Notes under the pieces: model-generated | What the model saw: the letters and a program-made list of their open reading frames with translations, nothing else | Databases searched by the model: none | What the model was told of the DNA's origin: nothing | Shown here: positions 2,877 through 40,795 of the stretch, piece by piece | Numbering within the stretch: position 1 is the stretch's first letter | How the letters are laid out: each line of letters begins with the position of its first letter | Program-made: the position numbers and the translations under genes | Source: a virus | Strand: one strand, 5' to 3' | Length of the DNA stretch: 41,431 nt | IMG/VR virus record: IMGVR_UViG_3300048597_000283 | Coordinates: 1-41,431 of that record

Positions 2877-3121
2877 GCCGCACGGTCGGCCATGAATGCG
2901 GCAACGCGATCGGGGATCAGCATCACGCATGCGATCTGCGATATCATCGTAACGCCCGCGGCGCCCTCGTACCCGAGGTTCTCGATCATCCAGTCCCAAG
3001 CCGGGTAAAGGAACGGGGCGGGGATGAATATGCACGCGACCCGCATCCACGTTGCCCACCACCCGTAGGCCTCGTCCCACGCCTTCTGTTGTTCGGGTGT
3101 GCGGCCGAGCCAGTTCCTCAT
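2864..3121 (-). CDS. Small two-helix membrane protein coupled to repressor
   Basis: The 85-residue protein begins at ATG 3121, which overlaps the repressor stop as ATGA, so it is made only when repressor mRNA is translated and hence in the lysogen. It has two hydrophobic segments, about residues 26-45 (MRVACIFIPAPFLYPAW) and 55-74 (AAGVTMISQIACVMLIP), with charged ends. Membrane proteins co-expressed with repressors are classic candidates for superinfection exclusion or lysogenic conversion. That role is inference; no family is recognised. Confidence 0.7.
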   Translation of the reverse strand: MRNWLGRTPEQQKAWDEAYGWWATWMRVACIFIPAPFLYPAWDWMIENLGYEGAAGVTMISQIACVMLIPDRVAAFMADRAAHKR

Positions 3122-3747
3122 ATCCGCCAGCTCGCGACGACCTTTCCCTTCACGACGACGTTGTTGCCGTCGACCACGTAGACGCCCTGGTTCTCTGGCT
3201 CGAGGCTGGCGGCCACCAGCACCGGCGGCTCTAGGCGGCGCAGCACTGTGGTCGCGGTGCCCGAATTCCAGTTGTAGATCTGAGCGATAACGGTGTCGTG
3301 CGCGCGCACCCGCTCTGACGCGAGGGTGTCGACCAGGAGGAAATCTCCTGGCAGGAACCCGGCCAGCGCCATCGCCGCGTTCTTCACGCGCCAGATATCG
3401 ACGCCCGGCTTCTGGCCCAAGCACTTGCCGATCTCGGCCACCCGGCGCTGTTCCTCCTCCTGCCCCGCGAAAGGCGTCGCATCGCTTTCGGAGAAGCCCG
3501 GCGACAGGGGCTGCGCCTCGGCCTGATCTAGCAGGCCCGCGCGGTCAAGGATCTCGTTCAGCGGCACCCCGAGGACGCGCGAGAAGACCTTGGCCTCGTC
3601 GAGCTTCATCTTCTGGCGGCCGATGTAGATCCGGGAAACGAGCGAGCGGTCCTTGCCCAGCTCGCGCGCGATATCGTCGGCCGTTACGCCGGCGATTTTC
3701 TGTCGCTGTTTGAACCACTTGTCATCCACCGCGACAGAGGTAATCAC
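3118..3747 (-). CDS. CI-type prophage repressor, S24-like but apparently non-cleavable
   Basis: This 209-residue protein has an N-terminal Xre-type helix-turn-helix (VTADDIARELGKDRSLVSRI, residues 21-40) and a C-terminal LexA/CI-like beta domain (GFLPGDFLLVD, GKVVASWR). It should hold the lysogenic state by binding the flanking operators. Where S24 peptidases have the catalytic Ser before Met, this protein has Ala125-Met126, and the catalytic Lys position in the following strand reads Arg170. RecA-stimulated self-cleavage therefore seems unlikely. The start is GTG 3747, with no strong ribosome site, so a leaderless message is possible. Confidence 0.88.
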   Translation of the reverse strand: MITSVAVDDKWFKQRQKIAGVTADDIARELGKDRSLVSRIYIGRQKMKLDEAKVFSRVLGVPLNEILDRAGLLDQAEAQPLSPGFSESDATPFAGQEEEQRRVAEIGKCLGQKPGVDIWRVKNAAMALAGFLPGDFLLVDTLASERVRAHDTVIAQIYNWNSGTATTVLRRLEPPVLVAASLEPENQGVYVVDGNNVVVKGKVVASWRI

Positions 3748-4113: not shown

Positions 4114-4346
4114 CGCGGGCCCGCACCCTTTCCCTGCCGATCTCCGCCACTGTCCCGTCGCTATTGCCTGGCGACCGGCGGAGCCGGTCTACTCCCGGGC
4201 GGCGATCCGCCCGGGCTTTCTATGCGAACGGCCGCGGTTCAACAGCCCGCGGCCCAGAGCGGGGCGGTCCCTCGTCTCCGCTCCACGGCGGCCGGGGCGG
4301 TATGAGCGCACCCGCCGCCGCGTCCTTCGGGGAGGCCTGCGCATGA
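4110..4346 (+). CDS. Uncertain ORF between cro-like gene and early operon
   Basis: The frame is 78 residues and overlaps both neighbours as ATGA (4110-4113 and 4343-4346), which favours a translated coupling ORF. Against this, the product is low-complexity Arg/Gly/Ser/Pro-rich with no fold signal, and the DNA contains two strong hairpins (4173-4215) that look like a terminator. It may be a short relay ORF, or only its last 14 codons (from ATG 4302) may act as a leader for the next gene. Confidence 0.3.
   Translation: MTRARTLSLPISATVPSLLPGDRRSRSTPGRRSARAFYANGRGSTARGPERGGPSSPLHGGRGGMSAPAAASFGEACA
4173..4219 (+). terminator. Double hairpin after cro-like gene (terminator or attenuator)
   Basis: Two perfect stems follow one another: GACCGGC/GCCGGTC (4173-4179 and 4183-4189, loop GGA) and CCCGGGCGG/CCGCCCGGG (4194-4202 and 4207-4215, loop CGAT), followed by CTTTC. 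The T-tract is weak. The position just after the first early gene is like lambda tR1, so it may limit early transcription. Confidence 0.5.
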
Positions 4347-4636: not shown

Positions 4637-4976
4637 CGCGCGCGCCAAGCTTTCCCCGCAGGACCTCGTCTTCGTGAACAGCATGGCGGCCGCCGTCATG
4701 ACCTGGTCGGTCGACGCCGACTGGCTCGAGCTGATGATCCACGAGGCGAAGGACGCGCTGCCCCATGTGAACCGGGAGCACGTGCACCTCGGCCCGATCG
4801 CGGACGCGGCGGACATCATGCTGGTCCGGGCAGGCGAGGCGGCGACGCGCGAGGAGCGGCAGGCGCTCTACCGCGCGGGCATGAACCGGGCGCGCGAGGC
4901 GCTGGTGCGCTACTTCCGCTGGCGCGCGGCCGAGGCGCTCGAGCTGGTGCGGGCCAAGGCGGGAGCGGCGGCATGA
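4629..4976 (+). CDS. Hypothetical early helical protein
   Basis: This is a 115-residue protein of mainly alpha-helical character, ending in a charged helix (ALVRYFRWRAAEALELVRAK). ATG 4629 has aggag 8 bp upstream and overlaps the previous stop. Its own stop overlaps the next start as ATGA. No domain is recognised. It may bind nucleic acid or another early protein through the basic C-terminal helix, but there is no direct evidence. Confidence 0.65.
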   Translation: MGDARAKLSPQDLVFVNSMAAAVMTWSVDADWLELMIHEAKDALPHVNREHVHLGPIADAADIMLVRAGEAATREERQALYRAGMNRAREALVRYFRWRAAEALELVRAKAGAAA

Positions 4977-6121
4977 GCGCGGCCGGGTCCTTCCAGGAGG
5001 CGCGGGACGGGCTGCGCGAGCTGCGCAAGAAGCTCGACGTGATGGACCACATCCTCGGGCTGATGGCCACCGTGGCCGACAGCATCCGGAACCAAGGTCA
5101 GGTGCCCGAGCTCGAGTACAACCGCGAGACCGAAGAGGTCGCGCTGCGGGTGCGCCTGGGTCTCGTGCCGCCGAAGGTGTCGGTCACGATGGAGACGGCC
5201 GAGCCGGTGACGAAGCCGAGCCTCGGCGACCTGTCGGACCGGATACAGGGGCTCGACAGCTCGGGCGCCGCGGAGATTGCGGAGGTCGCGCCGAGCCAGG
5301 TTCCGCTCGAGGCGCTGCGCGTGCAGCCGCCGGAAGCAGAGGGCGCCCGGCCCGCAGCGGGTGAGAGCCCCGCACACTCCTCTCGGACGAGGGTGCCGTG
5401 CCCGTGCATGGGGCATGACGAGATGTGCACGTGCCAGAACCGAATACCAGACGAAACCGATGGCGCTATCACCGCCGACCCAGACACTGTGGGCGACGGG
5501 AGCTGCGGGAGTAGGCAGCCACGGGCGGACGTGGACGCGACGCGCGCCGGCGAACAGGCGTCAGAGGCGGAGGAGAAGGCACCTGCCGCAGCGGGTGAGA
5601 GCCCCGCACCCGTCTACAAGACCGGCGAATGGAGCGTCGACGAGGAGCGGCACCTCCTCATGCTGCATGACCGCGGCACGCTCCTGCCCGACATGGCCGA
5701 GGCCCTCAACCGGCGGGGCCAGGGCGTCGCCGCGAAGCTCCGCTCGCTCCTCGCCCGGCGTTCGATCCCAAAGGCCAGCGCCGTCGCGGCGCGGGTCACC
5801 GCTGCGCCTCCGCCTCGCCGGCCTGCCGCACCTCCTCCCGCGGCGGGGCCGGTCCTTCAGGCTCGTCCCCGGCACGAGCGGGAGGCGGAGGCGCGCCTCG
5901 ACGCGGCGCAGGATCCCGACTGGCCGGTGGCGCGCGACCTCGACCTGGTCGAGCGGATGACGCGCGGCGACGGAGCGGGCAACACGGCCGCCGCCATGGG
6001 TTTCGTGAAGGACGCCGTGCTGGCCCGCTGGCGGCAGCTGTTCCCCAACCCCCCAACGATCGAGGAGCAGGCGGCCATGCTGGCCGTGCTCCGCACCCGT
6101 GTTCACAGCCAAGGAGAGTGA
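4973..6121 (+). CDS. Putative regulator with two Myb/SANT-like domains
   Basis: The 382-residue protein starts with a helical region, followed by a long acidic Pro/Ala-rich linker that contains a cysteine cluster (CPCMGHDEMCTC, about residues 142-153). Next is a Myb/GcrA-like unit, GEWSVDEERHLLMLHDRG and following (about 220-262), then a Pro/Arg-rich hinge and a second Myb-like unit near the C-terminus (LVERMTRGDGAGNTAAAMGF, then LARWRQLFP). GcrA and SANT domains bind DNA, so this may be an early or middle regulator. Two in-frame copies of a 24-bp repeat bracket the cysteine segment. Confidence 0.65.
   Translation: MSAAGSFQEARDGLRELRKKLDVMDHILGLMATVADSIRNQGQVPELEYNRETEEVALRVRLGLVPPKVSVTMETAEPVTKPSLGDLSDRIQGLDSSGAAEIAEVAPSQVPLEALRVQPPEAEGARPAAGESPAHSSRTRVPCPCMGHDEMCTCQNRIPDETDGAITADPDTVGDGSCGSRQPRADVDATRAGEQASEAEEKAPAAAGESPAPVYKTGEWSVDEERHLLMLHDRGTLLPDMAEALNRRGQGVAAKLRSLLARRSIPKASAVAARVTAAPPPRRPAAPPPAAGPVLQARPRHEREAEARLDAAQDPDWPVARDLDLVERMTRGDGAGNTAAAMGFVKDAVLARWRQLFPNPPTIEEQAAMLAVLRTRVHSQGE
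5352..5609 (+). repeat. In-frame 24-bp direct repeat pair within the Myb-domain gene
   Basis: The 24-bp word beginning CCGCAGCGGGTGAGAG occurs at 5352-5375 and again at 5586-5609. The copies are 234 bp apart (78 codons), in the same reading frame, and flanked by further similarity (peptides EAEGARPAAGESPA and EAEEKAPAAAGESPA). Recombination between copies would remove the cysteine-rich segment without a frameshift. Confidence 0.85.
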
Positions 6122-6123
6122 CG

Positions 6124-6387
6124 ATGCACGTGAAAATCCACACCGGCGCCGTGCCGGACGGCGAGACGACCATCACCCAGAGCGCGGCGCAGATCGTGCG
6201 GATGGGCTTCAACCCGTCGAAGCTCGAGCGCGTCGACCGCATCAAGGCGCTCGCCGCCGCGCTCGTCTCGGAATGCGAGGCGATCCAGAACGGCGTCAAG
6301 CCCGGCGGGCGCGAGGCGGCCATCGCCATCACCCAGATCCAGGGCGCCACCATGTTCGCCGTGGCGGCCGCGACGGCGGAGCTCTGA
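6124..6387 (+). CDS. Acb2/Tad1-like small protein (candidate anti-CBASS)
   Basis: This is an 87-residue protein. The C-terminal half is a helical hairpin, VDRIKALAAALVSECEAI then GREAAIAITQIQGATMFAVA, which resembles the hairpin domain of the Acb2/Tad1 family (helix, short loop, then a helix with Arg, Ala-Ile-x-x-Thr/x and Met-Phe/Trp-Ala). Family members are phage oligomers that bind cyclic nucleotide signals and block CBASS or Thoeris defence. ATG 6124 is chosen because aaggag lies 7 bp upstream; a GTG at 6118 is in frame. The family assignment comes from pattern memory and is unproven. A neutral early protein is the alternative. Confidence 0.55.
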   Translation: MHVKIHTGAVPDGETTITQSAAQIVRMGFNPSKLERVDRIKALAAALVSECEAIQNGVKPGGREAAIAITQIQGATMFAVAAATAEL

Positions 6388-6388
6388 C

Positions 6389-6637
6389 GTGCCCCGCTTC
6401 CGCAAGAAGCCAGTCGAGATCGAGGCGGTCCAAGTCCGTGCGGGAGAAATCCCGCACGAGCTGGACGGCTTCATCATGGCAGGGCGGATCCGGCACACGG
6501 AGCAGGACACGTTCCTGATCGAGACACTCGAGGGCACCATGGAGGCGCGCCCCGGGGACTGGATTATTCAAGGCGTCGCTGGCGAGCTCTACCCCTGCAA
6601 GCCCGACATTTTCGCCAAGACCTACGAGCCGGTCTGA
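6389..6637 (+). CDS. Conserved phage protein with PGDWIIQGV...YPCKPDIF motif
   Basis: This 82-residue protein matches a small, widespread phage family whose members share PGDWII-x-GV-x-GE-x-YPCKPDIF and end with x-TYEP. All these elements are visible (PGDWIIQGVAGELYPCKPDI and AKTYEPV). The family is found in many tailed phages and has no established function. It reads as a compact beta barrel. The GTG start at 6389 is one base after the previous stop. Confidence 0.85.
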   Translation: MPRFRKKPVEIEAVQVRAGEIPHELDGFIMAGRIRHTEQDTFLIETLEGTMEARPGDWIIQGVAGELYPCKPDIFAKTYEPV

Positions 6638-6641
6638 CGCC

Positions 6642-7796
6642 ATGTCCCACCCGACCCTCGACGAGATCGTCTCCGAGCTTCGCAGCCGCTGCGAGGACGT
6701 GGCGCGCGAGTATGCGCCCGGGGGCTACGTCGACGGCGGGCGGTACTGGGCGCTCGACCCGGGCCGGGACGACCGGAAGATCGGGTCCTTCTACGTGAAC
6801 CTGCGCGGCGCCTACCGGGGCCGGTTCCGCGACGAGAGCACGGGCACCGGCGGCGACATGCTCGACCTGATCCAGCGCGCCACGGGCAAGACAAAGCACG
6901 AGGCGATCGAGGAGGCGAAGCGGTTCCTCGGCATGGTGTCCGAGACGCAGGAGATGCGGGCCCGGCGGATCGAACGGCAGCGCAAGGCCGAGAAGGCCCG
7001 CGCGACGGAGGAGCAGGAGGACGCCGAGAAGCGCGCCCGTCGGCAGCGGCAGGCCCATGCCACCTGGCTCGAGGCGGAGCCCATGCTCCTCGACACGCCG
7101 GTCGACCGCTACCTCGCCGGCCGGGCGATCGACCTGCGCAAGCTGCCGCGCCTGCCCGGGGCGATCCGCTACCACCCGAAGCTCCGCTACTACGCCGTCG
7201 ACGACGAGACGGGCGAGGTGGTGGAGGGCGAATACCCCGCCATGGTCGCCGCGATCTACGGAGGCTGGACGCCCGACGGGGCGCGGCCGGACTTCATCGG
7301 GATCCACAAGACCTATCTCGCCCGGCGGCCCGACGGCAGCTGGGGCAAGGCGCCGGTGCCGAAGCCCAAGCTCCTCTGGGGATCGAAGAAGGGCGGCTAC
7401 ATCCGCGTCTGGCCCGGCATGGGACCGAAGGGCGGCAAGGGCCTGCCGATCAGCCGCGCGCCGCGCGGGAGCTGGCTCTACATCGCCGAGGGGATCGAGG
7501 ATGCGCTGTCGGCGGTGATGCTGCCCGGCGGGCTCGAGCGCCGCGTCGCGGCCGCGATCGACCTGGGCAACATCCGCGAAATGCGCCTGCCCCCGGCGAT
7601 TTCGGAGGTGTTCCTCATCGCCGACAACGACCCCAAGCCCGAGCAGCGCGAAGCGCTCGACCGCGCCGTCCGCGTCTTCGCGGAGGAGGGCCGGCACGTG
7701 CGCGTCTGGCGCAACGAATACGGGGGCAAGGACCTCAACGACGCGCTCGTGCTCGCCATGCGGGCGGAGCTGGAACGGGAGAAGGAGAAGGCATGA
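6642..7796 (+). CDS. Phage DNA primase with Toprim domain
   Basis: This 384-residue protein has an N-terminal primase-like region (RGAYRGRFRDESTGTGGDML, residues about 55-75) without the CHC2 zinc cysteines. A coiled, charged segment (about 100-145) follows, then a Toprim domain with the catalytic Glu in YIAEGIEDAL (about 281) and the acidic pair in FLIADNDPK (about 325). It should lay RNA primers for phage DNA replication with the helicase encoded downstream. The arrangement resembles DUF7146/Toprim primases of phages and plasmids. The stop overlaps the next ATG. Confidence 0.9.
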   Translation: MSHPTLDEIVSELRSRCEDVAREYAPGGYVDGGRYWALDPGRDDRKIGSFYVNLRGAYRGRFRDESTGTGGDMLDLIQRATGKTKHEAIEEAKRFLGMVSETQEMRARRIERQRKAEKARATEEQEDAEKRARRQRQAHATWLEAEPMLLDTPVDRYLAGRAIDLRKLPRLPGAIRYHPKLRYYAVDDETGEVVEGEYPAMVAAIYGGWTPDGARPDFIGIHKTYLARRPDGSWGKAPVPKPKLLWGSKKGGYIRVWPGMGPKGGKGLPISRAPRGSWLYIAEGIEDALSAVMLPGGLERRVAAAIDLGNIREMRLPPAISEVFLIADNDPKPEQREALDRAVRVFAEEGRHVRVWRNEYGGKDLNDALVLAMRAELEREKEKA

Positions 7797-9213: not shown

Positions 9214-11073
9214 GTGACAGAAGGCTCCGAGCAGGGAGCCCCGCGCAAGCCGGACCTGAAGATCCTGGGCGCGGAGCTCGAGAACACAGACCGGGCGGCC
9301 GAGGCGAAGAAGCCCGAGCCCGAGGCGAAGCAGAGGGTCGCGACCGGCGTGAAGACGGCCGCGGACCTCGCACGGCGTGAAGTCGGCGAGATCTTCCCCG
9401 GCTGCCCCGTGACGGCGCTCGGCGTCCACGGGAAGACGTTCTTCTACCTCGACTGGCTCGGCCAGCTGCAGGACGAGAAGCAGCACACGAAGGACCGGAT
9501 GCGCGCGCTCTTCGGCGGGCGGTCCGACATCCTTCAGGGCTGGTTCCCGCAGTACAACAAGAGCGGCATGGTGTCGGGCTGGTCGCAGGAAGACCTGGCC
9601 ACGATGATGATGACCGCCTGCACCGAGAAGGGCGTGTGGAACGCCTTCGAGAAGGTGCGCGGGCTGGGCGCCTGGCCCGACGACGAGGGCGGGATCGTGC
9701 TCCATTGCGGGGACGCGATCCTCTACAAGGGCAGCTGGCGGCAGCCGGGCGAGATCGACGGCTACGTCTACCCGTCGTCGCCGCGGATCCCCCGACCCCT
9801 CGAGGAGTTCATCGGACCCTCGCCGGGGCAGGTTCTCCTCGACCTCCTGAAGACGTGGAGCTGGCTGCGCGAGGACGTGGACGCCTACCTCCTCCTCGGC
9901 TGGATCTGCGGGGCGATGTTCGGCGGCGCGCTCGACTGGCGGCCGCTCGTCTGGGTGACGGGCGATGCCGGCACCGGCAAGTCGACGCTCCAGAAGCTCC
10001 TGCGGCACGTCATGGGCGGCGAGGGCGCCATCCTCCAGTCCACCGACGCCACCGAGGCGTCGGTCCGGCAGTTCCTCATGCAGTCGACGATCCCCGTCAG
10101 CCTCGACGAGATCGAGGCGGAGGCGAACGGGCAGAAGGTGCAGGCCGTGGTGAAGCTCGCCCGGCAGGCGGCCTCCGGCGGCGTCATCCTGCGCGGCGGG
10201 GCCGACCACAAGGGGCAGGAGTTCAAGGCGCGCAGCGCGTTCATCTTCAGCTCGATCAACGTGCCGCCGCTCCTCGACCAGGACATCAGCCGGATCGCGC
10301 TCCTCGAGCTCATGCCGTTGCGCCGGGGCGAGACGCCGCCGGCGATCGAACCGCGCCACTGGACGCGCGTCGGGCGGGGCCTGAGGACGCGCGTGATCGA
10401 CGGCTGGGGACGGCTCCACGACACGCTCGAGCGCTACCGGCAGGCCCTTGCGCGGGCCGGGCACAGCGCGCGCGGGTGCGACCAGTTCGGGACGCTCCTC
10501 GCCATGGCGGACCTCGCGCTCTACGACGAGGTGCCCTCGGCCGAGCGGTGCGATCTCTGGGCCACGAAGCTCAGCGCGAGCGCGATCGAGGAGCAGACGG
10601 ACCAGTCGGCCGACTGGCAGCGGTGCCTTAACTACCTCTTCGCGCAGCAGCTCGACCTCTACCGCTCGGGCGAGCGCTACACCGTCGGCCGCTGGGTGCT
10701 GATCGCGTCGGGCTACGACCAGTCCGAGGAGCCGCACAAGGCGCAGCGGGCGCTGCAAAGCGTGGGCTTGCGCGTCTACGGTGAGCGGCAGGCGGCCCAG
10801 CTGGCGGTGGCCAACGGGCACGACGGGCTCGCGCGGCTCTTCGAGGGAACGCACTGGCATGCCCAGGGCGCGCAGAAGGGCGTGTGGGCGCAGGCGATGA
10901 AGCGCGTGCCCACCTCGCAGGCCACACCCACGATCAAGTTCGACGGCGTTGTCTCCCGGGCAAGGCGCTTCTCGCTCCGCGCAATCCCCAACTTCTCGGA
11001 AGATGATGAAATGTCGCAGCCGCCGCAGGCGGGTGCGACGCCGCATTTACCCAGCGATATCAACGATTACTGA
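9214..11073 (+). CDS. Replicative helicase/ATPase (SF3/D5-like)
   Basis: This 619-residue protein has a Walker A, GDAGTGKST (residues about 250-258), a Walker B-like VSLDEIEAE (about 294-302) and a sensor-type strand FIFSSINVPP (about 345). It has the size and layout of D5/SF3-like phage helicases that pair with Toprim or primpol primases. It should unwind DNA at the phage origin. The GTG start at 9214 is preceded by a weak ribosome site. The long non-coding iteron-like region directly downstream is the natural candidate for its loading site. Confidence 0.85.
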   Translation: MTEGSEQGAPRKPDLKILGAELENTDRAAEAKKPEPEAKQRVATGVKTAADLARREVGEIFPGCPVTALGVHGKTFFYLDWLGQLQDEKQHTKDRMRALFGGRSDILQGWFPQYNKSGMVSGWSQEDLATMMMTACTEKGVWNAFEKVRGLGAWPDDEGGIVLHCGDAILYKGSWRQPGEIDGYVYPSSPRIPRPLEEFIGPSPGQVLLDLLKTWSWLREDVDAYLLLGWICGAMFGGALDWRPLVWVTGDAGTGKSTLQKLLRHVMGGEGAILQSTDATEASVRQFLMQSTIPVSLDEIEAEANGQKVQAVVKLARQAASGGVILRGGADHKGQEFKARSAFIFSSINVPPLLDQDISRIALLELMPLRRGETPPAIEPRHWTRVGRGLRTRVIDGWGRLHDTLERYRQALARAGHSARGCDQFGTLLAMADLALYDEVPSAERCDLWATKLSASAIEEQTDQSADWQRCLNYLFAQQLDLYRSGERYTVGRWVLIASGYDQSEEPHKAQRALQSVGLRVYGERQAAQLAVANGHDGLARLFEGTHWHAQGAQKGVWAQAMKRVPTSQATPTIKFDGVVSRARRFSLRAIPNFSEDDEMSQPPQAGATPHLPSDINDY

Positions 11074-11541: not shown

Positions 11542-12207
11542 GTGGCTAAGCCCCGCAACCAGTGGGAGGTCGACGCGCGCGCCATGGCCGAGCGGATCGA
11601 GCGCGCGGCCGAGCTTGGCCAGCAGCTCACCTTCCTCCCGGACGAGCTCCCGGCCGAGGCCGACCAGGGCGAGGGCGCGGCGATCGGGCGCCCGGCCGGC
11701 GCGCGGAACAAGGCCTCGAGCCAGATGCGCGACTGGCTCGCGGCGCGCGGGTTCCGCCTGCCCGAGGAGGTGCTGGTGCAGATGGCGGGCCTCGACGCGC
11801 AGGAGGACGCCGTCCTGGTGGCCATGGCGCGGACGGAGCGGATCCTCGCCTGGGCGTTCGACGTGGGCGCGGACGTGCCGCTGCCGAAGGGCACGGCGCG
11901 GGTGGCGACACCGGCCAAGCGGCTCGAGGTCTTCATGCAGGTGTTCACGATCCAGCTGCGCGCGGCCGAGGCGATGCTGCCCTACGGCGCGGCGAAGGCC
12001 TCGCCTGACGTGAACGTGGTCCAGCGCACGACGATCGTCATGCCTGGCGCGGCTGCACCGGCCGATCCTGCCGCCTCGGCACGGGACGTGACGCCCCGTT
12101 CGGACGGTCGGATGCGGCCGCCGCCGCTGCCGGGCGAAGTGCAGCGAAATCAAGGGGTTGCAGGCGCGCCGGATCGCGCGTCGGACGGGCGAGGTCGGAC
12201 GGAATGA
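11542..12207 (+). CDS. terS: Terminase small subunit
   Basis: This 221-residue protein has features of small terminases that start with a GRPAGARNK motif (residues about 51-59). A helical DNA-binding and oligomerisation region follows (about 60-150), and then AEAMLPYGAAKASPDVNVVQ, typical before the disordered tail. It should recognise the packaging site and bring DNA to the large subunit. GTG 11542 is used, with a purine-rich stretch upstream. The C-terminal 60 residues are low complexity and overlap DNA with IHF-like and repeated sites. Confidence 0.8.
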   Translation: MAKPRNQWEVDARAMAERIERAAELGQQLTFLPDELPAEADQGEGAAIGRPAGARNKASSQMRDWLAARGFRLPEEVLVQMAGLDAQEDAVLVAMARTERILAWAFDVGADVPLPKGTARVATPAKRLEVFMQVFTIQLRAAEAMLPYGAAKASPDVNVVQRTTIVMPGAAAPADPAASARDVTPRSDGRMRPPPLPGEVQRNQGVAGAPDRASDGRGRTE

Positions 12208-12385: not shown

Positions 12386-14191
12386 ATGGGTTTCGGCGCG
12401 ACAGGGGAGGCGTCCCGATGGGGTCGGGGGTGTGCCTGGGCTCCGTCTGACGAGGGTCGGGGGGCTAGGCTTGCTCCGGAGGCTGATCGCCTCGCCGAGC
12501 AGGACTTCCGCGCGTGGAGCGCCGCGGAAGGTCTGGCCAACCTGCGCGGGGAATTCGCGGAGGTCAAGCCGGAAGTTCCCACGACCTTTCCGGGGCCGAT
12601 CGCCGAGGCGATGTTCTGGGACGACAGTTCGATCGTCGGCATCCAAGGCCCCGTGGGGTCGGGCAAGACCACGACCGTCCTGCACTCCCGCCTCCGCCGG
12701 GCACGGATGATGCCGCGGTCCACGATCGACGCCATCCGGCACTACAAGCTCCTCGTGATCCGGGCGACCTACCGGCAGCTCTGGTCGACGACGATCCCCG
12801 ACTTCCTCGGCGTCTTCCCGAAGGACCTGGGCGAGTGGTCCGGCGGCCGCGGCGGGCCGGTGACCTACGTCATGCCCTTCGAGGACGAGGACGGGCCGAT
12901 CGACTTCACGGCCGAGTTCATGGCCTTCGGCGACGACATCGTGGGCTCGATGCGCGGCTACCAAGCGACCGACATCTGGCTCCACGAGATGGACACGAAC
13001 CCGTCAGACGTCCTCATCAACGGCATCACCCGGATCAACCGCTACCCGGCCAAGCGCCACTTCGACGGCTACCCGCCCGAGTTCCGGGACTATGGGCAGA
13101 TCGTCGGCGACATGAACGCCATGGACAAGGACAACTTCGCCTACAAGCTGTTCCACGACGAGAAGGAGCGCACCCGGATTGCGGCGGAGCTCAACCGGAG
13201 CCTGCCAGAAGGCACGAAGCAGATCCGCATCTCCTTCCATCGGCAGCCCGGCTACGGCGAGCCCGGAACCGAGAACCTGCACAACCTCTCGACGGCCTAC
13301 TACCCCACCCAAATCGCGACCATGAAGCTCCTCGGGCGCGGGGACATGATCGAGCGGATGGTCTACAACCGCGTGACCTATCTCCGCGTGGGCCAGCCGG
13401 TCTTCCAGCGCGAATTCAACCGCGACATCCACGTCTCCCGCCAGCCGCTCGAGCTGATAGAGGGCGTGCCGCTGCGCATCGGGCTCGACCAGGGCTTCAA
13501 GGGCGCCGCCGTGATTGCCCAGTTCGTGCCGCCGTTCCAGTGGCGCATCTACGGGGTCGTGTTCTTCCCGGAAGAGCGCCTCTTTGCCCGCGAATTCGGG
13601 CGCCGGCTGCGCGAGTACCTACAGGAGCGCTTCCCCAACTGGCCCATCGAGGGCGGCTGGGGCGATATGGCGGGCGAACACGGCGCTTCGCAGTCGGCCG
13701 ACGAGAACGCGACCTGGAATTCGGTCGTCAGCCAGACTGCGGGCTTCCCGATCCTGCCCCAGCGCGTCGGTACGAACCGCATACAGCCCCGCCTCGAGGC
13801 GGTCCGCGCTGCGCTCGAGCACATCCGGGGCGGCAAGCCGGGCCTCATCATCGACCGCCACGACGATTGCGACCCGCTGATCGCGGCCTTCGAGGCCCGC
13901 TACGTCTGGACCGAAGACGGCACCGACAATCCCAAGAAGGTCGGGCACGGTGACCATTCCGGCGAGAAGCGGAAGATCCCCGACAAGCGCTTGCCCGAGG
14001 CGAACGTCATGGACGCGCTTCAGTACCTCTGCCTGAGCGAGGTCCTGGGCGACGGCCTGACCGACACCCGGCTTCACGACATCCCCGGCACCGGCCGCAG
14101 CGATGCGATCGGCCACAACGGAGGCCCGCCGCTGGGCGACGAGGGCGGCCTCCTCTCAACCTACGACGTTCTCAACCCCTACGGAGGCTGA
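12386..14191 (+). CDS. terL: Terminase large subunit
   Basis: This 601-residue packaging motor has an N-terminal ATPase with Walker A GPVGSGKTT (residues about 88-96) and a Walker B-like DIWLHEMDT (about 196), and a C-terminal RNaseH-like nuclease with the acidic residue in GLDQGFKG (about 368) and a last acidic element DALQYLCL (about 542). It cuts and translocates DNA into the prohead through the portal. ATG 12386 is chosen because ggaggt (12371-12376) lies 9 bp upstream; GTG 12383 is also possible. A longer frame from 12158 lacks support and overlaps the candidate packaging site. Confidence 0.93.
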   Translation: MGFGATGEASRWGRGCAWAPSDEGRGARLAPEADRLAEQDFRAWSAAEGLANLRGEFAEVKPEVPTTFPGPIAEAMFWDDSSIVGIQGPVGSGKTTTVLHSRLRRARMMPRSTIDAIRHYKLLVIRATYRQLWSTTIPDFLGVFPKDLGEWSGGRGGPVTYVMPFEDEDGPIDFTAEFMAFGDDIVGSMRGYQATDIWLHEMDTNPSDVLINGITRINRYPAKRHFDGYPPEFRDYGQIVGDMNAMDKDNFAYKLFHDEKERTRIAAELNRSLPEGTKQIRISFHRQPGYGEPGTENLHNLSTAYYPTQIATMKLLGRGDMIERMVYNRVTYLRVGQPVFQREFNRDIHVSRQPLELIEGVPLRIGLDQGFKGAAVIAQFVPPFQWRIYGVVFFPEERLFAREFGRRLREYLQERFPNWPIEGGWGDMAGEHGASQSADENATWNSVVSQTAGFPILPQRVGTNRIQPRLEAVRAALEHIRGGKPGLIIDRHDDCDPLIAAFEARYVWTEDGTDNPKKVGHGDHSGEKRKIPDKRLPEANVMDALQYLCLSEVLGDGLTDTRLHDIPGTGRSDAIGHNGGPPLGDEGGLLSTYDVLNPYGG

Positions 14192-14980: not shown

Positions 14981-15181
14981 ATGTGCATCGCACGGGCCTT
15001 CAGGGGGCCGAAGATCCCTGATCCGAAGCCGGCCATCTTCGCGGCGCCGGACAACACCGAAGCCACCCGCGCCGCCTCGCTCGAGGCCGCGCTGCGCCGC
15101 CGCCGCGCAGGTGCCGCGGCCGACATCCTCACCAGCCCGACCGGGATCCCGGCCACGGCCACCATGGGCGGGGTCGCGTGA
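14981..15181 (+). CDS. Small conserved-type virion-region protein
   Basis: This 66-residue protein begins MCIARAFRGPKIPDPKP and is followed by a helical Arg/Ala-rich part. Short proteins with a similar MC-x-Pro-rich start precede portal genes in related short-tailed phages. The ribosome site aggaga lies upstream and its stop shares a base with the portal ATG. The Cys2 position echoes the start of the gp14-like protein at 23525. Function unknown. Confidence 0.65.
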   Translation: MCIARAFRGPKIPDPKPAIFAAPDNTEATRAASLEAALRRRRAGAAADILTSPTGIPATATMGGVA

Positions 15182-19213: not shown

Positions 19214-20128
19214 ATGTCCTTCGACCAAAGGGTCGAGCAGCACCACAAGCTGCTGTTCCGCGACACCTTCATGCAGGTCACCCAGTACAAGGGCTCGAAG
19301 CTCCGCCCTTACGTGACCGAGCAGGCCTGCCAGGGCGAAGGTGCCACGGCCGCCGATCTCATCGGCATCATCACCTACCGCCGCGGCACGGGCCGCCGGC
19401 GCACGAACATCGAGAACGTGCCGCAGCGGACCCGCCGCTGGCTCGTCTACCGCGACCCGATCGAGACGGGCCAGTACCTCGACAACGAGGACAAGTTCCG
19501 CCAGGCGGGCCAGCCGGACAGCATGCTCATCGACGCGCACGTCATGGCCATGCGCCGCGGCGTCGACGACACGATCCTCGGCATCGACGAGAACGGCGCG
19601 GTCGGCGAAGGCGGCATCCTCGGCGTCATCACCGAGGGCAAGACCCCCGGCGGCGCGGGCGTTGCCCTTCCGTCGGCCCAGCGGACGGTTGTGGGCGGCA
19701 CCGGCCTCACGATCGCCAAGCTCCGCGCGGCGCGGCTGCGTCTCGGGCTTGACGACAACGACCTCGAGAGCATGACCCCGGTCATGGCGATCACGTCGCG
19801 GCAGCACGACAACCTTCTCGGCATCGTCGAGACGGCGAGCGCGAACCTCAACATGCTCGAGCAGCCGCATATCGTCGAAGGCAAGGTGAAGCGGCTCCTC
19901 GGCTTCAACTTCATCGAGGTCAACCGCCTGCCCCGCGCCGGCACCGTCCGCTCCTGCCCCGTGTGGGTGAAGCAGCAGGTGAAGCTCGGCGTCTGGCAGG
20001 ACATCAAGCCGGACATGTGGAACGACACGGCCGCCCGGAACACCCCGTACATCCACGTCGACGCCTACATGGACGCGACGCGGATCGAGGACATCGGCGT
20101 CCACGTCGTCGAATGCAACGAGCCGTAA
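19214..20128 (+). CDS. Major capsid protein
   Basis: This 304-residue protein is preceded by a strong ribosome site (cggagggg). It reads as a capsid subunit of the BPP-1/Bbp17-like family: MSFDQRVEQHHKLLFRDTFM start, NVPQRTRRWLVYRDPIETGQ (about 58-77), and ITSRQHDNLLGIVETAS (about 194-210). Capsid subunits of this group have an HK97-type fold. The following gene resembles the cement protein of BPP-1, which supports the assignment. Confidence 0.88.
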   Translation: MSFDQRVEQHHKLLFRDTFMQVTQYKGSKLRPYVTEQACQGEGATAADLIGIITYRRGTGRRRTNIENVPQRTRRWLVYRDPIETGQYLDNEDKFRQAGQPDSMLIDAHVMAMRRGVDDTILGIDENGAVGEGGILGVITEGKTPGGAGVALPSAQRTVVGGTGLTIAKLRAARLRLGLDDNDLESMTPVMAITSRQHDNLLGIVETASANLNMLEQPHIVEGKVKRLLGFNFIEVNRLPRAGTVRSCPVWVKQQVKLGVWQDIKPDMWNDTAARNTPYIHVDAYMDATRIEDIGVHVVECNEP

Positions 20129-32831: not shown

Positions 32832-33295
32832 TGACCCGCGCGCTCCCCGCCTTCCTCTTCCTCCTGTTCCTCGCCCCCTGGCCCGCGGACGCCGGGCCCG
32901 ACCGGGTGTCGATCCTCCTCGGGTCGCACCACACGGAGGACTATGCCTGGGAGGAGGCCAACCCGGGCGTCTTCCTCACGTGGGAGGACGGCTCCTTCGG
33001 GCTCGACTACAGCCTCGGCGCCTATCGCAACTCCTTCGGGACAGGCTCGGTCGCGGCGATCGCCGGGCTCGAGCTCATGGCCTGGGAGGAGGGCGCGGCC
33101 AGCGCCTTCTGCGGCGCGGCCTGGTACCCGGGCAACGGCCAGCACTTCCTGATCCACGCCGGCGACGTCGTGCCGCTCTGCGGGCTCCAGCTGCGGCAGG
33201 GGCCCATCTTCGCCCAGCTCATGCCCGGCAAGGTCGAGCCGCCCGAGCTCATCCTCGCCTTCGGGCTCACCTTCGCCATCGGAGACGCACCATGA
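32831..33295 (+). CDS. Exported PagP-like small barrel protein
   Basis: The 154-residue protein (155 if GTG 32828 is used) has a clear signal peptide (ALPAFLFLLFLAPWPADA). The mature part has EEANPGVFLTWEDGSFGLDY and GAYRNSFGTGS, a pattern (NPG, Y-x-NS, x-S) seen in phage and bacterial small outer-membrane barrel proteins, some resembling lipid A palmitoyltransferase PagP. It could alter the cell surface or assist lysis. Enzymatic residues are not verified. Confidence 0.6.
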   Translation: MTRALPAFLFLLFLAPWPADAGPDRVSILLGSHHTEDYAWEEANPGVFLTWEDGSFGLDYSLGAYRNSFGTGSVAAIAGLELMAWEEGAASAFCGAAWYPGNGQHFLIHAGDVVPLCGLQLRQGPIFAQLMPGKVEPPELILAFGLTFAIGDAP

Positions 33296-34272
33296 ACGCG
33301 ATCGCCAGACCCGACACGAACGCCGCGATCCTCGCCGTGGCGGGCAGCTACCTCGGCCTCGAAGAGTGGCCAGGCGCGCGGCACAACCCCGAGATCATGG
33401 CGATGTTCGGCGCCGTCGGGCACGACTGGGTAAAGGACGACGAGACACCCTGGTGCGCCGCTTTCGTGGGCGCGGTGCTCGCACAGTTGGGCCTGCCGCA
33501 CACCGGCAAGCTCAATGCCCGGTCCTACCTCGAATGGGGCGTGCCGGTGCCGATCGCCGAAGGCGGGCCTGGCGATGTCTACGTCTTCTGGCGCGGATCG
33601 CCGGACGCCGCCACGGGGCACGTCGCGATCGGGGTTCGGCGCGATGGCGACCGCGTTCTTGTCCGCGGTGGCAACCAGGGCAATGCCGTCACCGACGCCT
33701 GGTATCCTGTCTCGCGGATCCTCGGCGTCCGGCGCTACTCGGCCGAGCTCGCCCGGCTGGGGCGGCCGACGCTCCGCGAGGGCATTAGCGGCGCGGCGGT
33801 CCGCGATCTCCAGGAGGAGCTCCGCCGCCTCGGCCACTTCGCCGGGCGGATCGACGGGATCTTCGGGCCACGCACGCTCGCGGCCGTGCTCGCGTTCCAG
33901 GCGCAGGAGGGCGTGGCGACCGATGGGATCGTCGGGCCCGTCACCTGGCGGCGCATGGCCGACGCCGAGCCGATGCCCGAGCGGAACATCGACGTCGACG
34001 AGCTGCGCGCCAGCGGATCCCGGACGATCAAGGACGCCGACCTGACCGAGGTCGTGGCCACCGGCACGGCCTTCGTCGCGGTCGCGCGGGAGGCCGCCGG
34101 CGTGCTCGAGGAGGGCAGGGGGGTGCTCGGCACGATCACCGCGCTCGTCACGGAACAGTGGCCCGCGCTCATCGCCATCGCCGTCGCCTTGGGCCTCGTC
34201 CTCTACCTGACCGGACGCATCAAAGCGGCACGTGTCTCAGACGCGCGCAGCGGCGCGAATTTGGGCCGCTGA
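33292..34272 (+). CDS. Endolysin: Cys/His amidase-peptidase, PG-binding domain, C-terminal membrane anchor
   Basis: The 326-residue protein has a TIGR02594/NlpC-P60/CHAP-like catalytic domain with Cys in TPWCAAFVGAVLAQLG (about 61) and His in TGHVAIGVRR (about 106). A peptidoglycan-binding-1 domain follows (REGISGAAVRDLQEELRRLG, about 161-180, DGIVGPVTWRRM about 212). It ends with one hydrophobic helix (PALIAIAVALGLVLYLTGRI) and a short basic tail. Cell-wall lysis at the end of infection is the expected role. The C-terminal helix is unusual and suggests membrane tethering. Confidence 0.88.
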   Translation: MNAIARPDTNAAILAVAGSYLGLEEWPGARHNPEIMAMFGAVGHDWVKDDETPWCAAFVGAVLAQLGLPHTGKLNARSYLEWGVPVPIAEGGPGDVYVFWRGSPDAATGHVAIGVRRDGDRVLVRGGNQGNAVTDAWYPVSRILGVRRYSAELARLGRPTLREGISGAAVRDLQEELRRLGHFAGRIDGIFGPRTLAAVLAFQAQEGVATDGIVGPVTWRRMADAEPMPERNIDVDELRASGSRTIKDADLTEVVATGTAFVAVAREAAGVLEEGRGVLGTITALVTEQWPALIAIAVALGLVLYLTGRIKAARVSDARSGANLGR

Positions 34273-38341: not shown

Positions 38342-40795
38342 ATGCCCAGATTCAAGTTTCTCGGGTTCGCTACCGGCTCCGCTGTCGCTCTGGCCGTCGC
38401 CCAAGGTGCCGCAAGCGCGAACGCCGCTCTGACATGGGGTCAGCCTGGCGGCGGCGGGGCGCCCAACGCCTCGTTCACGATCACGCGGGTGGACGGGCTG
38501 GACAACACGAACCTGATCGCGCCTGCGGGTGTGCATCTAAGGGCTTCGTCGCTCGTGGGGTTCAACGTCTCAGAGCCCCCCGGCGATACCAACGTCTATG
38601 ACCCGACGCAGCACCGGATCACCTTCATCTGGGACTTCGGCGATCCGGGGTATGTCCCCCGGTTCACGCCGAACATCCCGACCGTCCACCGCGACCCGAA
38701 CATCGCTTACGGCAAGTCGGTCAGCCACGTCTTCGCGGCAGCGGGAAACTACACTGTCACGTGCTGGGCGTTCGATGACGCGGGGAATTGGGGCACGGCG
38801 ACCTATACCTTCGGGCCAAGCGGCAACGCAGGGCCGATCCGCTCGCAGAACGAAGCCTTCCCGAACAATCAGACAATCGTGTTTTCGGTCGACGCTGCGA
38901 CTAACCCTGCACTTTGGGCAGGGGAGCCTTCTGGCGCTGTTCGCTGCACCACTCCCACCCAAGTCAACAGCGCGGTCAGTGCGGCAGGTTCTCGAGCTCG
39001 CGTTCTGTTCCGGAGGGGCGAGGTCTACACCTTCGCGCGCAACTTTGGCAGCACCAGCGGCATCGGACGCGACGGCGGGACTTCGATCTATTTCTCGTCA
39101 TACGGACCGAGTTCAACGCCGCCTGTGCTGAACGTCGACGGCTCCGGCCCTATCAAGATGCAAGACGTATTCGGCGGGGCCTGCGCTCTTGACGGCCTCG
39201 ACTTCATCGGGCCGTGGGACGCCGCCACCGAAACCGGCACGATTGGCTCGCCCTTTTCCGAACTCGGCGACAACGCGGAAAACCTCGTCATCCACCGATG
39301 CCTCATCAGCGGGATGAGATGGATCCAGCGCGGGAACAATCCCACTGTCGGAGGTGGGTGCTCCTGGTGGAACGATATGAGGCTCACGAACTGGAAGGAC
39401 TACGGCGTCCTCAGCTTTCGTGGTCGGACAGCCCTCATCGGTTCTGACTTCGCTCAGAACGTCGATGCGCTAATGGGTATCGACCAGCTTGTTTACGGGT
39501 CGCAAAGCCTCACGAATTTTGGGAACACGCACGGTCCTGTCCGGTCTGCCGGTGAACGCCACCTTTACGTGGGTTGCACTTCATTCTTCTCCCGTAACGG
39601 ATGGTCAACGGCCAGTTCGGGGGGGGCACCCACGTCATCGCAGGCGTGCTGGCGCGCAACGCCCGACACGACGGTAACCACATACCGCACGCATATGATG
39701 TTTGATCGGTGTTCGTTCGAGGGTTCCGGCAGTCTGTATTCGGTTCAATCGGTGACCGATCCTGCGAGCACAGGCTACGAGCGCAACCGGGTGTTCGACA
39801 AGTGCCTATTCGTCGGCACGGCCTACGGAGCAGACGGCGCAGGGAACGGTTTCTTTAACACGCGCTGCCCCGGAATGACGATCCGGAATTGCTACTTCTA
39901 TCGTCCCGATGTGGCCAAGAGGCAGAACGACAACCTGTTCCAGAACGGTGCGGTAAATGCAGATTTGACGGCTGGGTCGCCAGCGTCCCTGACGGATACG
40001 CCACTCCGGTTCTACAACAATACCTTCTACATCCCGAGCGTGCAGGCGCGCATCGGCACGCTCGCGCCAGTGTTCTTCAAAACGAACGGCACGGTGGAGA
40101 ACCAAAACAACGTCTTCTTTGCGCCGAACCTGACGACGCCGATAGGCGCATCCTTCGCCCCGCTCGGGACTTCCCCGCTTGCGGGCTTCCAGTGCCGCTT
40201 CAAGGGTGGCCGGTGGAACCCGCCGCCCATCGGTTCGGACAAGGGGCCGACCGGCCTTCTGCCGGTGACCTCACGGCGCGAGAACCCCGGCGTTCCGGGA
40301 ACGCTGCAAGCTGGCTCAGTAGCTGTCGGCGAAAGCATCCTCCTGCCCTATCCGAACTATACCGGGCAGGCCGGATACACCCTAAACGTCACGCAGGCGA
40401 TGATCCTCGGCAACCCGACGCAGCGGCACCAGTTCAGCGTTCATGACGTGGTGATCCGCCGCAGCGATCCGGCCTTGTGGCCCCAAGGCGAGGGCGGGGT
40501 GACGATCTCGTTCCAGCCGACCTTCATCCGTGTGACGAACAACACGGGCGTCGTGTGGTCCACGGGCGATGCATGGCTGCAACTGGACCTCACGCCGCAG
40601 CTCATGGCCTTCGACACACCGTCTCCGCCGGACATTCCCGCACCTGTTCCGGGCGTTGGGTCGGGCGCGCGGGTCGCGCCCAATCCGGCAGCGAAAGCCT
40701 ACGACCACTTCTTCGGCGAGATCCAGAACCTCAACCTGGACAAGTTCGGCAACCCGGTATCGCGGCCGAACGTCATCGGAGCCTTCGCGGCATGA
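38342..40795 (+). CDS. Large tailspike with PKD domain and right-handed beta-helix
   Basis: The 817-residue protein has an N-terminal hydrophobic Ala-rich start that resembles a signal peptide (ATGSAVALAVAQGAASANA). A PKD-like Ig domain follows (ITFIWDFGDPG about 92, HVFAAAGNYTVTCWAFDD about 131-148). A right-handed beta-helix region comes next (about 240-590; e.g. NLVIHRCLISGMRW, RHLYVGCTSFF, MMFDRCSFEGSG, MTIRNCYFYR), and a C-terminal cap. It probably binds and may cut a surface polysaccharide. Composition is more AT-rich than the virion core, typical of swapped host-range genes. Confidence 0.82.
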   Translation: MPRFKFLGFATGSAVALAVAQGAASANAALTWGQPGGGGAPNASFTITRVDGLDNTNLIAPAGVHLRASSLVGFNVSEPPGDTNVYDPTQHRITFIWDFGDPGYVPRFTPNIPTVHRDPNIAYGKSVSHVFAAAGNYTVTCWAFDDAGNWGTATYTFGPSGNAGPIRSQNEAFPNNQTIVFSVDAATNPALWAGEPSGAVRCTTPTQVNSAVSAAGSRARVLFRRGEVYTFARNFGSTSGIGRDGGTSIYFSSYGPSSTPPVLNVDGSGPIKMQDVFGGACALDGLDFIGPWDAATETGTIGSPFSELGDNAENLVIHRCLISGMRWIQRGNNPTVGGGCSWWNDMRLTNWKDYGVLSFRGRTALIGSDFAQNVDALMGIDQLVYGSQSLTNFGNTHGPVRSAGERHLYVGCTSFFSRNGWSTASSGGAPTSSQACWRATPDTTVTTYRTHMMFDRCSFEGSGSLYSVQSVTDPASTGYERNRVFDKCLFVGTAYGADGAGNGFFNTRCPGMTIRNCYFYRPDVAKRQNDNLFQNGAVNADLTAGSPASLTDTPLRFYNNTFYIPSVQARIGTLAPVFFKTNGTVENQNNVFFAPNLTTPIGASFAPLGTSPLAGFQCRFKGGRWNPPPIGSDKGPTGLLPVTSRRENPGVPGTLQAGSVAVGESILLPYPNYTGQAGYTLNVTQAMILGNPTQRHQFSVHDVVIRRSDPALWPQGEGGVTISFQPTFIRVTNNTGVVWSTGDAWLQLDLTPQLMAFDTPSPPDIPAPVPGVGSGARVAPNPAAKAYDHFFGEIQNLNLDKFGNPVSRPNVIGAFAA

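Follow-up and report, generated by a model that had tools for sequence, protein, structure and literature searches.

The window, one whole IMG/VR virus record of 41,431 bases (IMGVR_UViG_3300048597_000283), encodes an 87-residue protein (P0001; positions 6124..6387, + strand) that belongs to the PF24729 (Acb2/Tad1 hairpin) superfamily and is probably best explained as a hexameric hairpin nucleotide sponge in which the dinucleotide pocket is remodelled and the site on the three-fold axis retained. Family membership, selection, a hairpin model, the residue pattern and a counter-defence neighbourhood are supported here. Sponge function as such is likely, and a preference for cyclic trinucleotides over dinucleotides is suggested tentatively. 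In the proposed mechanism, P0001 would assemble via its two-helix hairpin into a hexamer that soaks up a nucleotide alarm signal from the infected host, and this capture would keep the suicide effector of CBASS or a similar signalling defence from being triggered. The central site on the three-fold axis, which takes up cyclic trinucleotides in Acb2 and Tad1, appears to be retained through R63, T70 and A68, and the edge pocket appears to be remodelled by the loss of K/R81 and of the C-terminal aromatic residue and the addition of an N-terminal beta-hairpin. P0001 and its closest relatives form a small branch that alters both ends of the protein and keeps helix 2, which is why we read it as a sponge whose edge pocket is remodelled and whose central site is retained.

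The P0001 open reading frame comprises 87 codons from an ATG at 6124 to a TGA at 6385-6387 and is tightly packed between the stop codon of the upstream gene (6119-6121) and the GTG of the next gene (6389). A Shine-Dalgarno-like AAGGAG, read by eye at 6111..6116 (+ strand) within the 3' end of the upstream gene, lies 7 nt ahead of the ATG. The N-terminal start MH[VI]xI[HN]T is common to seven distinct homologs of 60-76% identity, one of which (L032) has an extra G after the first M, and this shared N-terminus in the branch relatives supports ATG 6124 as the start. With a pN/pS of 0.25-0.45 against all seven branch relatives, the reading frame is under purifying selection and is a real gene, more than a chance frame. 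The upstream open reading frame (4973..6121, + strand; 382 aa) forms the left edge of a variable slot, has a distant homolog in the sister phage L005 and gave no PHROG or Pfam match. Only 1 bp after the P0001 stop follows a gene matching the PHROG family phrog_419 (6389..6637, + strand), which has relatives in 772 phage records, some of them annotated as nucleotide pyrophosphohydrolase, and could be a further counter-defence part. A primase-like gene (6642..7796, + strand) forms the right edge of the slot. As far as gene order goes, the early operon proposed in the original prediction stands: a repressor-like gene (3118..3747, - strand) diverges from a run of + genes, in which P0001 lies directly ahead of primase-like genes. 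Upstream of P0001, a terminator-like hairpin of nine G-C pairs with a T-rich tail (4194-4215), located between the first + gene and the early genes, is possibly a transcription control point.

Judged from its genes, the window reads as a temperate podovirus-like phage, encoding an integrase (554-1768, - strand), a second primase-like gene also called helicase-like (starting at 9214), a large terminase (starting at 12158), a head-tail adaptor (starting at 15178), a major head protein (starting at 19214) and tail proteins (from 20709 onward). Furthermore, an endolysin-like gene (33292-34269) matches the peptidoglycan-binding family PF01471 with 64 bits, in addition to a sub-threshold CHAP match, and an 817-residue protein (38342-40795) with a PKD domain (PF18911, 27.7 bits, cut-off 27) is maybe a receptor-binding or tail-spike part.

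P0001 matches PF24729 with 43.1 bits (E 4.8e-11; curated cut-off 27) over residues 28-84 (6205..6375, + strand), and all five further branch records tested are also above the cut-off. PHROG 717, the family of T4 Vs.4, which is described as a hexamer binding three cGAMP (Jenson et al., PMC10097602), is matched at E<=1 by 8/8 branch members, with a best value of 3.3e-6. P0001 alone matches PHROGs weakly (E 0.0013 and 0.0064, the latter being PHROG 717). A phmmer search of the PDB with P0001 alone found neither Vs.4 nor the Pseudomonas phage Acb2 p26, and hhalign of the branch profile against the single sequences of Vs.4 or p26 gave a non-significant probability of 1-2%, with the register as expected. 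Because these single-sequence links are weak, the family assignment rests on curated profiles. A profile built from P0001 and ten relatives including Vs.4 recovers Vs.4 (partly by construction), the PDB entry 9ptq at 7e-5 and Tad1 chains at ~0.3; the same search without Vs.4 in the profile gives 0.0045 for Vs.4 and 0.0063 for 9ptq, with one designed protein scoring better (0.0012). Other Pfam matches of P0001 are limited to a sub-threshold CHASE3, and an NCBIfam search returned just one sub-threshold HpaD row. Tad2 identity was rejected, as P0001 has no match to PF11195. The candidate Acb2/Tad1-type assignment is thus upheld at the level of the hairpin family by Pfam, by PHROG 717 and by the BFVD structure search described below, and of the profile comparisons suggested as a check, PF24729 and PHROG 717 agree with it and hhalign against Vs.4 or p26 alone does not. 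As P0001 lacks some of the defining features tested for each of Acb2 and Tad1, it is filed as neither Acb2 nor Tad1 proper. The domain has already been named by Pfam; what merits testing is the consistent loss of one site in the branch and the sponge-cassette pattern.

As a single-sequence query, P0001 found no relative at E<=1 in the phage collection, and none of its 9 candidates in viral contigs or 78 in genome contigs was confirmed. Relatives were recovered with alignment queries instead: an alignment search led by P0001 matched 324 stretches, of which 92 were confirmed and 80 kept. The retrieval pattern fixes I67, A68, T70 and A75 of P0001, which in itself accounts for part of the conservation of those columns; it does not cover R63, K41, F29, A81 or the C-terminus. 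Most of the 47 loci inspected belong to a large family of small open reading frames with the consensus FGEKAVGLxFNPS ... SIAITEAQxAQMWAVKAATW. The window, L030, L031 (=L112), L032, L110 (=L114), L111 (=L115), L113 and L116 form a separate small branch, whose members are 60-76% identical to P0001 and in which about half of the columns are invariant (alignment of 8). Three branch members reside in genomes titled Oceanicola sp. S124, Paracoccus onubensis and Chachezhania sediminis, all of which we take to be Rhodobacterales, and the branch gene is present in 2 of the 394 genomes searched from the family of the Paracoccus relative. The modules that hold branch members are unrelated: L030 follows a Mu-like head gene, L031 is flanked by holin and endolysin, L032 comes behind a capsid gene and P0001 lies, by gene order, in the early operon of the window. 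Such a spread fits an accessory gene. A literature search by title returned no publication on the P0001 branch or on hairpin-Tad2 pairing, which is not proof of absence. Among the wider relatives, one hairpin-family protein (L038:3845-4261), seen by eye, is extended at its N-terminus by a long stretch (ISIDAHAGWPVRVTS...) that is possibly a beta-rich front end on the hairpin, as in Tad1.

AlphaFold2 modelling of P0001 with 26 relatives yielded a mean pLDDT of 92.0 and a pTM of 0.80 and predicts strands at residues 2-5 and 13-16, a helix at 19-24 and two long antiparallel helices at 35-55 and 62-83. Two motifs highlighted in the original prediction, GREAAIAIT and MFAV, are confirmed at residues 62-70 and 77-80, respectively. 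The model of the generic family member L052 (23 sequences, pLDDT 94.3) contains helices at 10-14, 25-47 and 51-76 and no strands, and the beta-hairpin of residues 2-16 (6127..6171, + strand) therefore looks special to the P0001 branch. The unusual N-terminus that had been pointed out is thus confirmed; it is common to a small branch and, by prediction, forms this beta-hairpin. The first two Foldseek hits of P0001 in BFVD are 'Acb2/Tad1 hairpin domain' proteins (probability 1.00, E ~3e-3), and Foldseek against the PDB returned no match at E<=1e-3 for P0001 and none of significance for L052. VIA comparisons with Vs.4 gave Z 5.8 for P0001 and 6.4 for L052, and those with Acb2 gave 4.9 for both, scores that unrelated two-helix chains equal. 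In the VIA row for Acb2 8h2x, P0001 residues 30-87 correspond to 15-91, end points that fit R63=R67 and T70=T74; the Vs.4 row uses another register for P0001, and for L052 its end points fit the sequence register. Tad1 and 9ptq are absent from the VIA rows shown, which re-align Foldseek's own hits and so cannot exclude either. The structural comparison with Acb2/Tad1 is therefore divided, with the hairpin model and BFVD matches in its favour, and against it the lack of a significant PDB Foldseek match and VIA scores not above those of unrelated hairpins.

Hairpin sponges are described as having two separable sites, which bind dinucleotides at the edge and trinucleotides in the central channel (PMC12043709). 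In T4 Vs.4, Y8 and F82 are reported to stack on cGAMP, with polar contacts from Y8, H11, K23 and R79, the hexamer is made by L29, A66, A73 and A77, and the F82A exchange cuts cGAMP binding >25-fold (PMC10097602). In addition, T68M in T4 Acb2 is described as lowering binding (PMC12657230), and the dinucleotide pocket of Acb2 as being built by two protomers through their N- and C-terminal ends (PMC10419184). Residues were counted over the 89 unique sequences that 101 loci yielded, with six duplicate or foreign loci omitted; 85 of the sequences lie outside the branch and 4 inside it. R63 (codon 6310..6312, + strand), which is Arg in 88 of the 89, aligns with R67 of Acb2 p26, a residue that presumably has a role in trinucleotide binding. 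T70 (codon 6331..6333, + strand) is the counterpart of T4 Acb2 T68 and is Thr in 87 sequences, and both A68 and A75 are Ala in 89, counts that are partly fixed by the retrieval pattern. In our reading, the central site would be lined by R63 and T70. The K41 column, which lies outside the retrieval pattern, is Lys in 89/89.

The edge pocket presents a different picture. A81 (codon 6364..6366, + strand) occupies the column of R79 in T4 Acb2, which is Lys in 85/85 sequences outside the branch and Ala in 4/4 inside it (8/8 in the fuller branch alignment). The C-terminal aromatic residue is present in 82/85 sequences outside the branch and 0/4 inside; in the fuller alignment it is missing from 7/8, the exception being L111 with a Tyr at 86. 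The position of T4 F82 is T84 in P0001, with no aromatic residue after it, and p26 has Ala in the same column. This replacement of two residues that contact cGAMP in T4 Acb2 reinforces the earlier suggestion of a divergent subfamily. The hexamer-interface residues A66, A73 and A77 of Vs.4 correspond to A68, A75 and A79 of P0001; A75 is replaced by Thr or Ser in L110, L111 and L116, and the interface is thus not strictly kept. Alignments disagree on the P0001 counterparts of T4 Y8, H11 and K23: F29 aligns with Y8 in one alignment and not in another, and the structure of L052 places the FNPS loop near T12.

P0001 shares the helix-2 motif IAxTxxxAxMxA, the interface alanines, PHROG 717 and a similar size (87 versus 88 aa) with T4 Vs.4/Acb2 (PDB 7uq2), but R79 and F82 of Vs.4 are A81 and T84 in P0001, R63 corresponds to an Asp in Vs.4, and P0001 has the extra N-terminal beta-hairpin. 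The helix-2 GR...T of p26 (8h2x, 8ixz) is in register with that of P0001 (R63/R67, T70/T74), whereas p26 R85 corresponds to A81 and p26 has an N-terminal helix in place of the beta-hairpin and short helix of P0001. Tad1 (PDB 7uav, 8kbb and others) shares the PF24729 hairpin domain by name and strands ahead of the hairpin; its N-terminal sheet is described as four-stranded (PMC12043709), in contrast to the two predicted four-residue strands of P0001, and its profile matches are weak (E 0.3-1.6). The generic FGE-FNPS phage hairpin family (L052, L033; 28-41% identity) has in common with P0001 the FNPS loop, K41, R63, T70 and the hairpin; unlike P0001, it keeps a C-terminal AVKA-x-TW or AVKANF, and its modelled member lacks the beta-hairpin. 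'Acb2 homolog 43' (PDB 9ptq; 76 aa, six chains with the same sequence) contains EGREKSVFKT, which resembles GREAAIAIT, and is matched by family profiles only (E 7e-5 and 0.0063); a literature search found no publication on it.

Two readings of the edge pocket, each possible and neither probable, differ in what it would bind. In the first, P0001 retains an Acb2-like spectrum, with residues of the beta-hairpin compensating for the lost Lys and aromatic residue so that binding of cyclic dinucleotides such as cGAMP persists. The two ends that form the Acb2 pocket are altered together in the branch, and K41 and F29 stay fixed, which is consistent with compensation. On the other hand, R79 and F82 are contacts to cGAMP in Vs.4, where loss of the aromatic residue alone is so costly, and P0001 contains no Trp and no Tyr. 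In the second, about as tentative, the central site is kept, the standard dinucleotide pocket is given up and the beta-hairpin forms a new pocket at the edge for another signal, either with trinucleotides as the only ligands or with a signal new to the family. Panoptes is described as punishing phages for sequestering cyclic dinucleotides (PMC12657218, PMC12657230), so loss of the dinucleotide site could be an escape route, and a sponge re-tooled in this manner might escape Panoptes-like defences. With contacts consistently lost at one site and the other site intact, the branch would serve as a clean natural experiment for studying specificity.

Rather improbably, the hairpin fold could serve a job other than signal capture, for instance as a regulator or assembly partner in an early or late operon. 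Two-helix hairpins are common folds, relatives in lysis or head modules would also suit structural or timing roles, and no structure-function data were found on the FNPS-type family or the branch. Against this stand the near-invariant Arg and Thr of helix 2, the latter at the position where T68M lowers binding in T4, the name of the solved homolog ('Acb2 homolog 43') and the Tad2-like genes that adjoin 12/100 hairpin loci. A decayed sponge that has lost its function in the P0001 branch, as the loss of an otherwise invariant Lys and aromatic residue might imply, is very improbable given the pN/pS values against all seven branch relatives and the invariance of about half of the branch columns.

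The genomic context of P0001 fits counter-defence, in line with the preferred reading of a sponge with a retained central site. Two sister phages, L005 and L006, were found via the helicase-like gene at 9214. In L005, a Tad2-like gene (PF11195, 91.5 bits) occupies the slot, which is flanked there by the primase and a homolog of the 382-residue reading frame. In L006, the slot before the primase is empty by reading, and a hairpin gene (13576-13776) is followed after four bases by a Tad2-like gene (99.6 bits), shortly before the head gene. Each sister has one PF11195 match and the window phage has none; Acb4 (PF13876) was found in 0/3 of these phages, but control genomes likewise gave no match, so this result carries no weight. 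Of 100 hairpin loci (0.69 Mb), 12 carry a same-strand Tad2-like frame in contact with the hairpin gene, in both gene orders, and none carries one further away; as L069, L071, L073 and L084 are near-identical, the independent cases are fewer than 12. All five Tad2-like frames tested pass the Pfam check. That hairpin and Tad2-like genes replace each other in one slot and are directly paired elsewhere points to small sponge cassettes, and new sponges could be found through such neighbourhoods.

SMODS nucleotidyltransferases, the type of enzyme used by CBASS, are encoded in 15/198 genomes of a host family. They occur together with a hairpin gene in 2/198 genomes versus 0.76 expected, which is no real excess, and a hairpin-CBASS link was thus rejected as evidence. 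At one locus (L041:3953-4674), a hairpin gene, a Tad2-like gene and a second hairpin gene are arranged in tandem, and this second hairpin keeps the FNPS, Lys and Trp but lacks the helix-2 R...T, the reverse of the P0001 branch.
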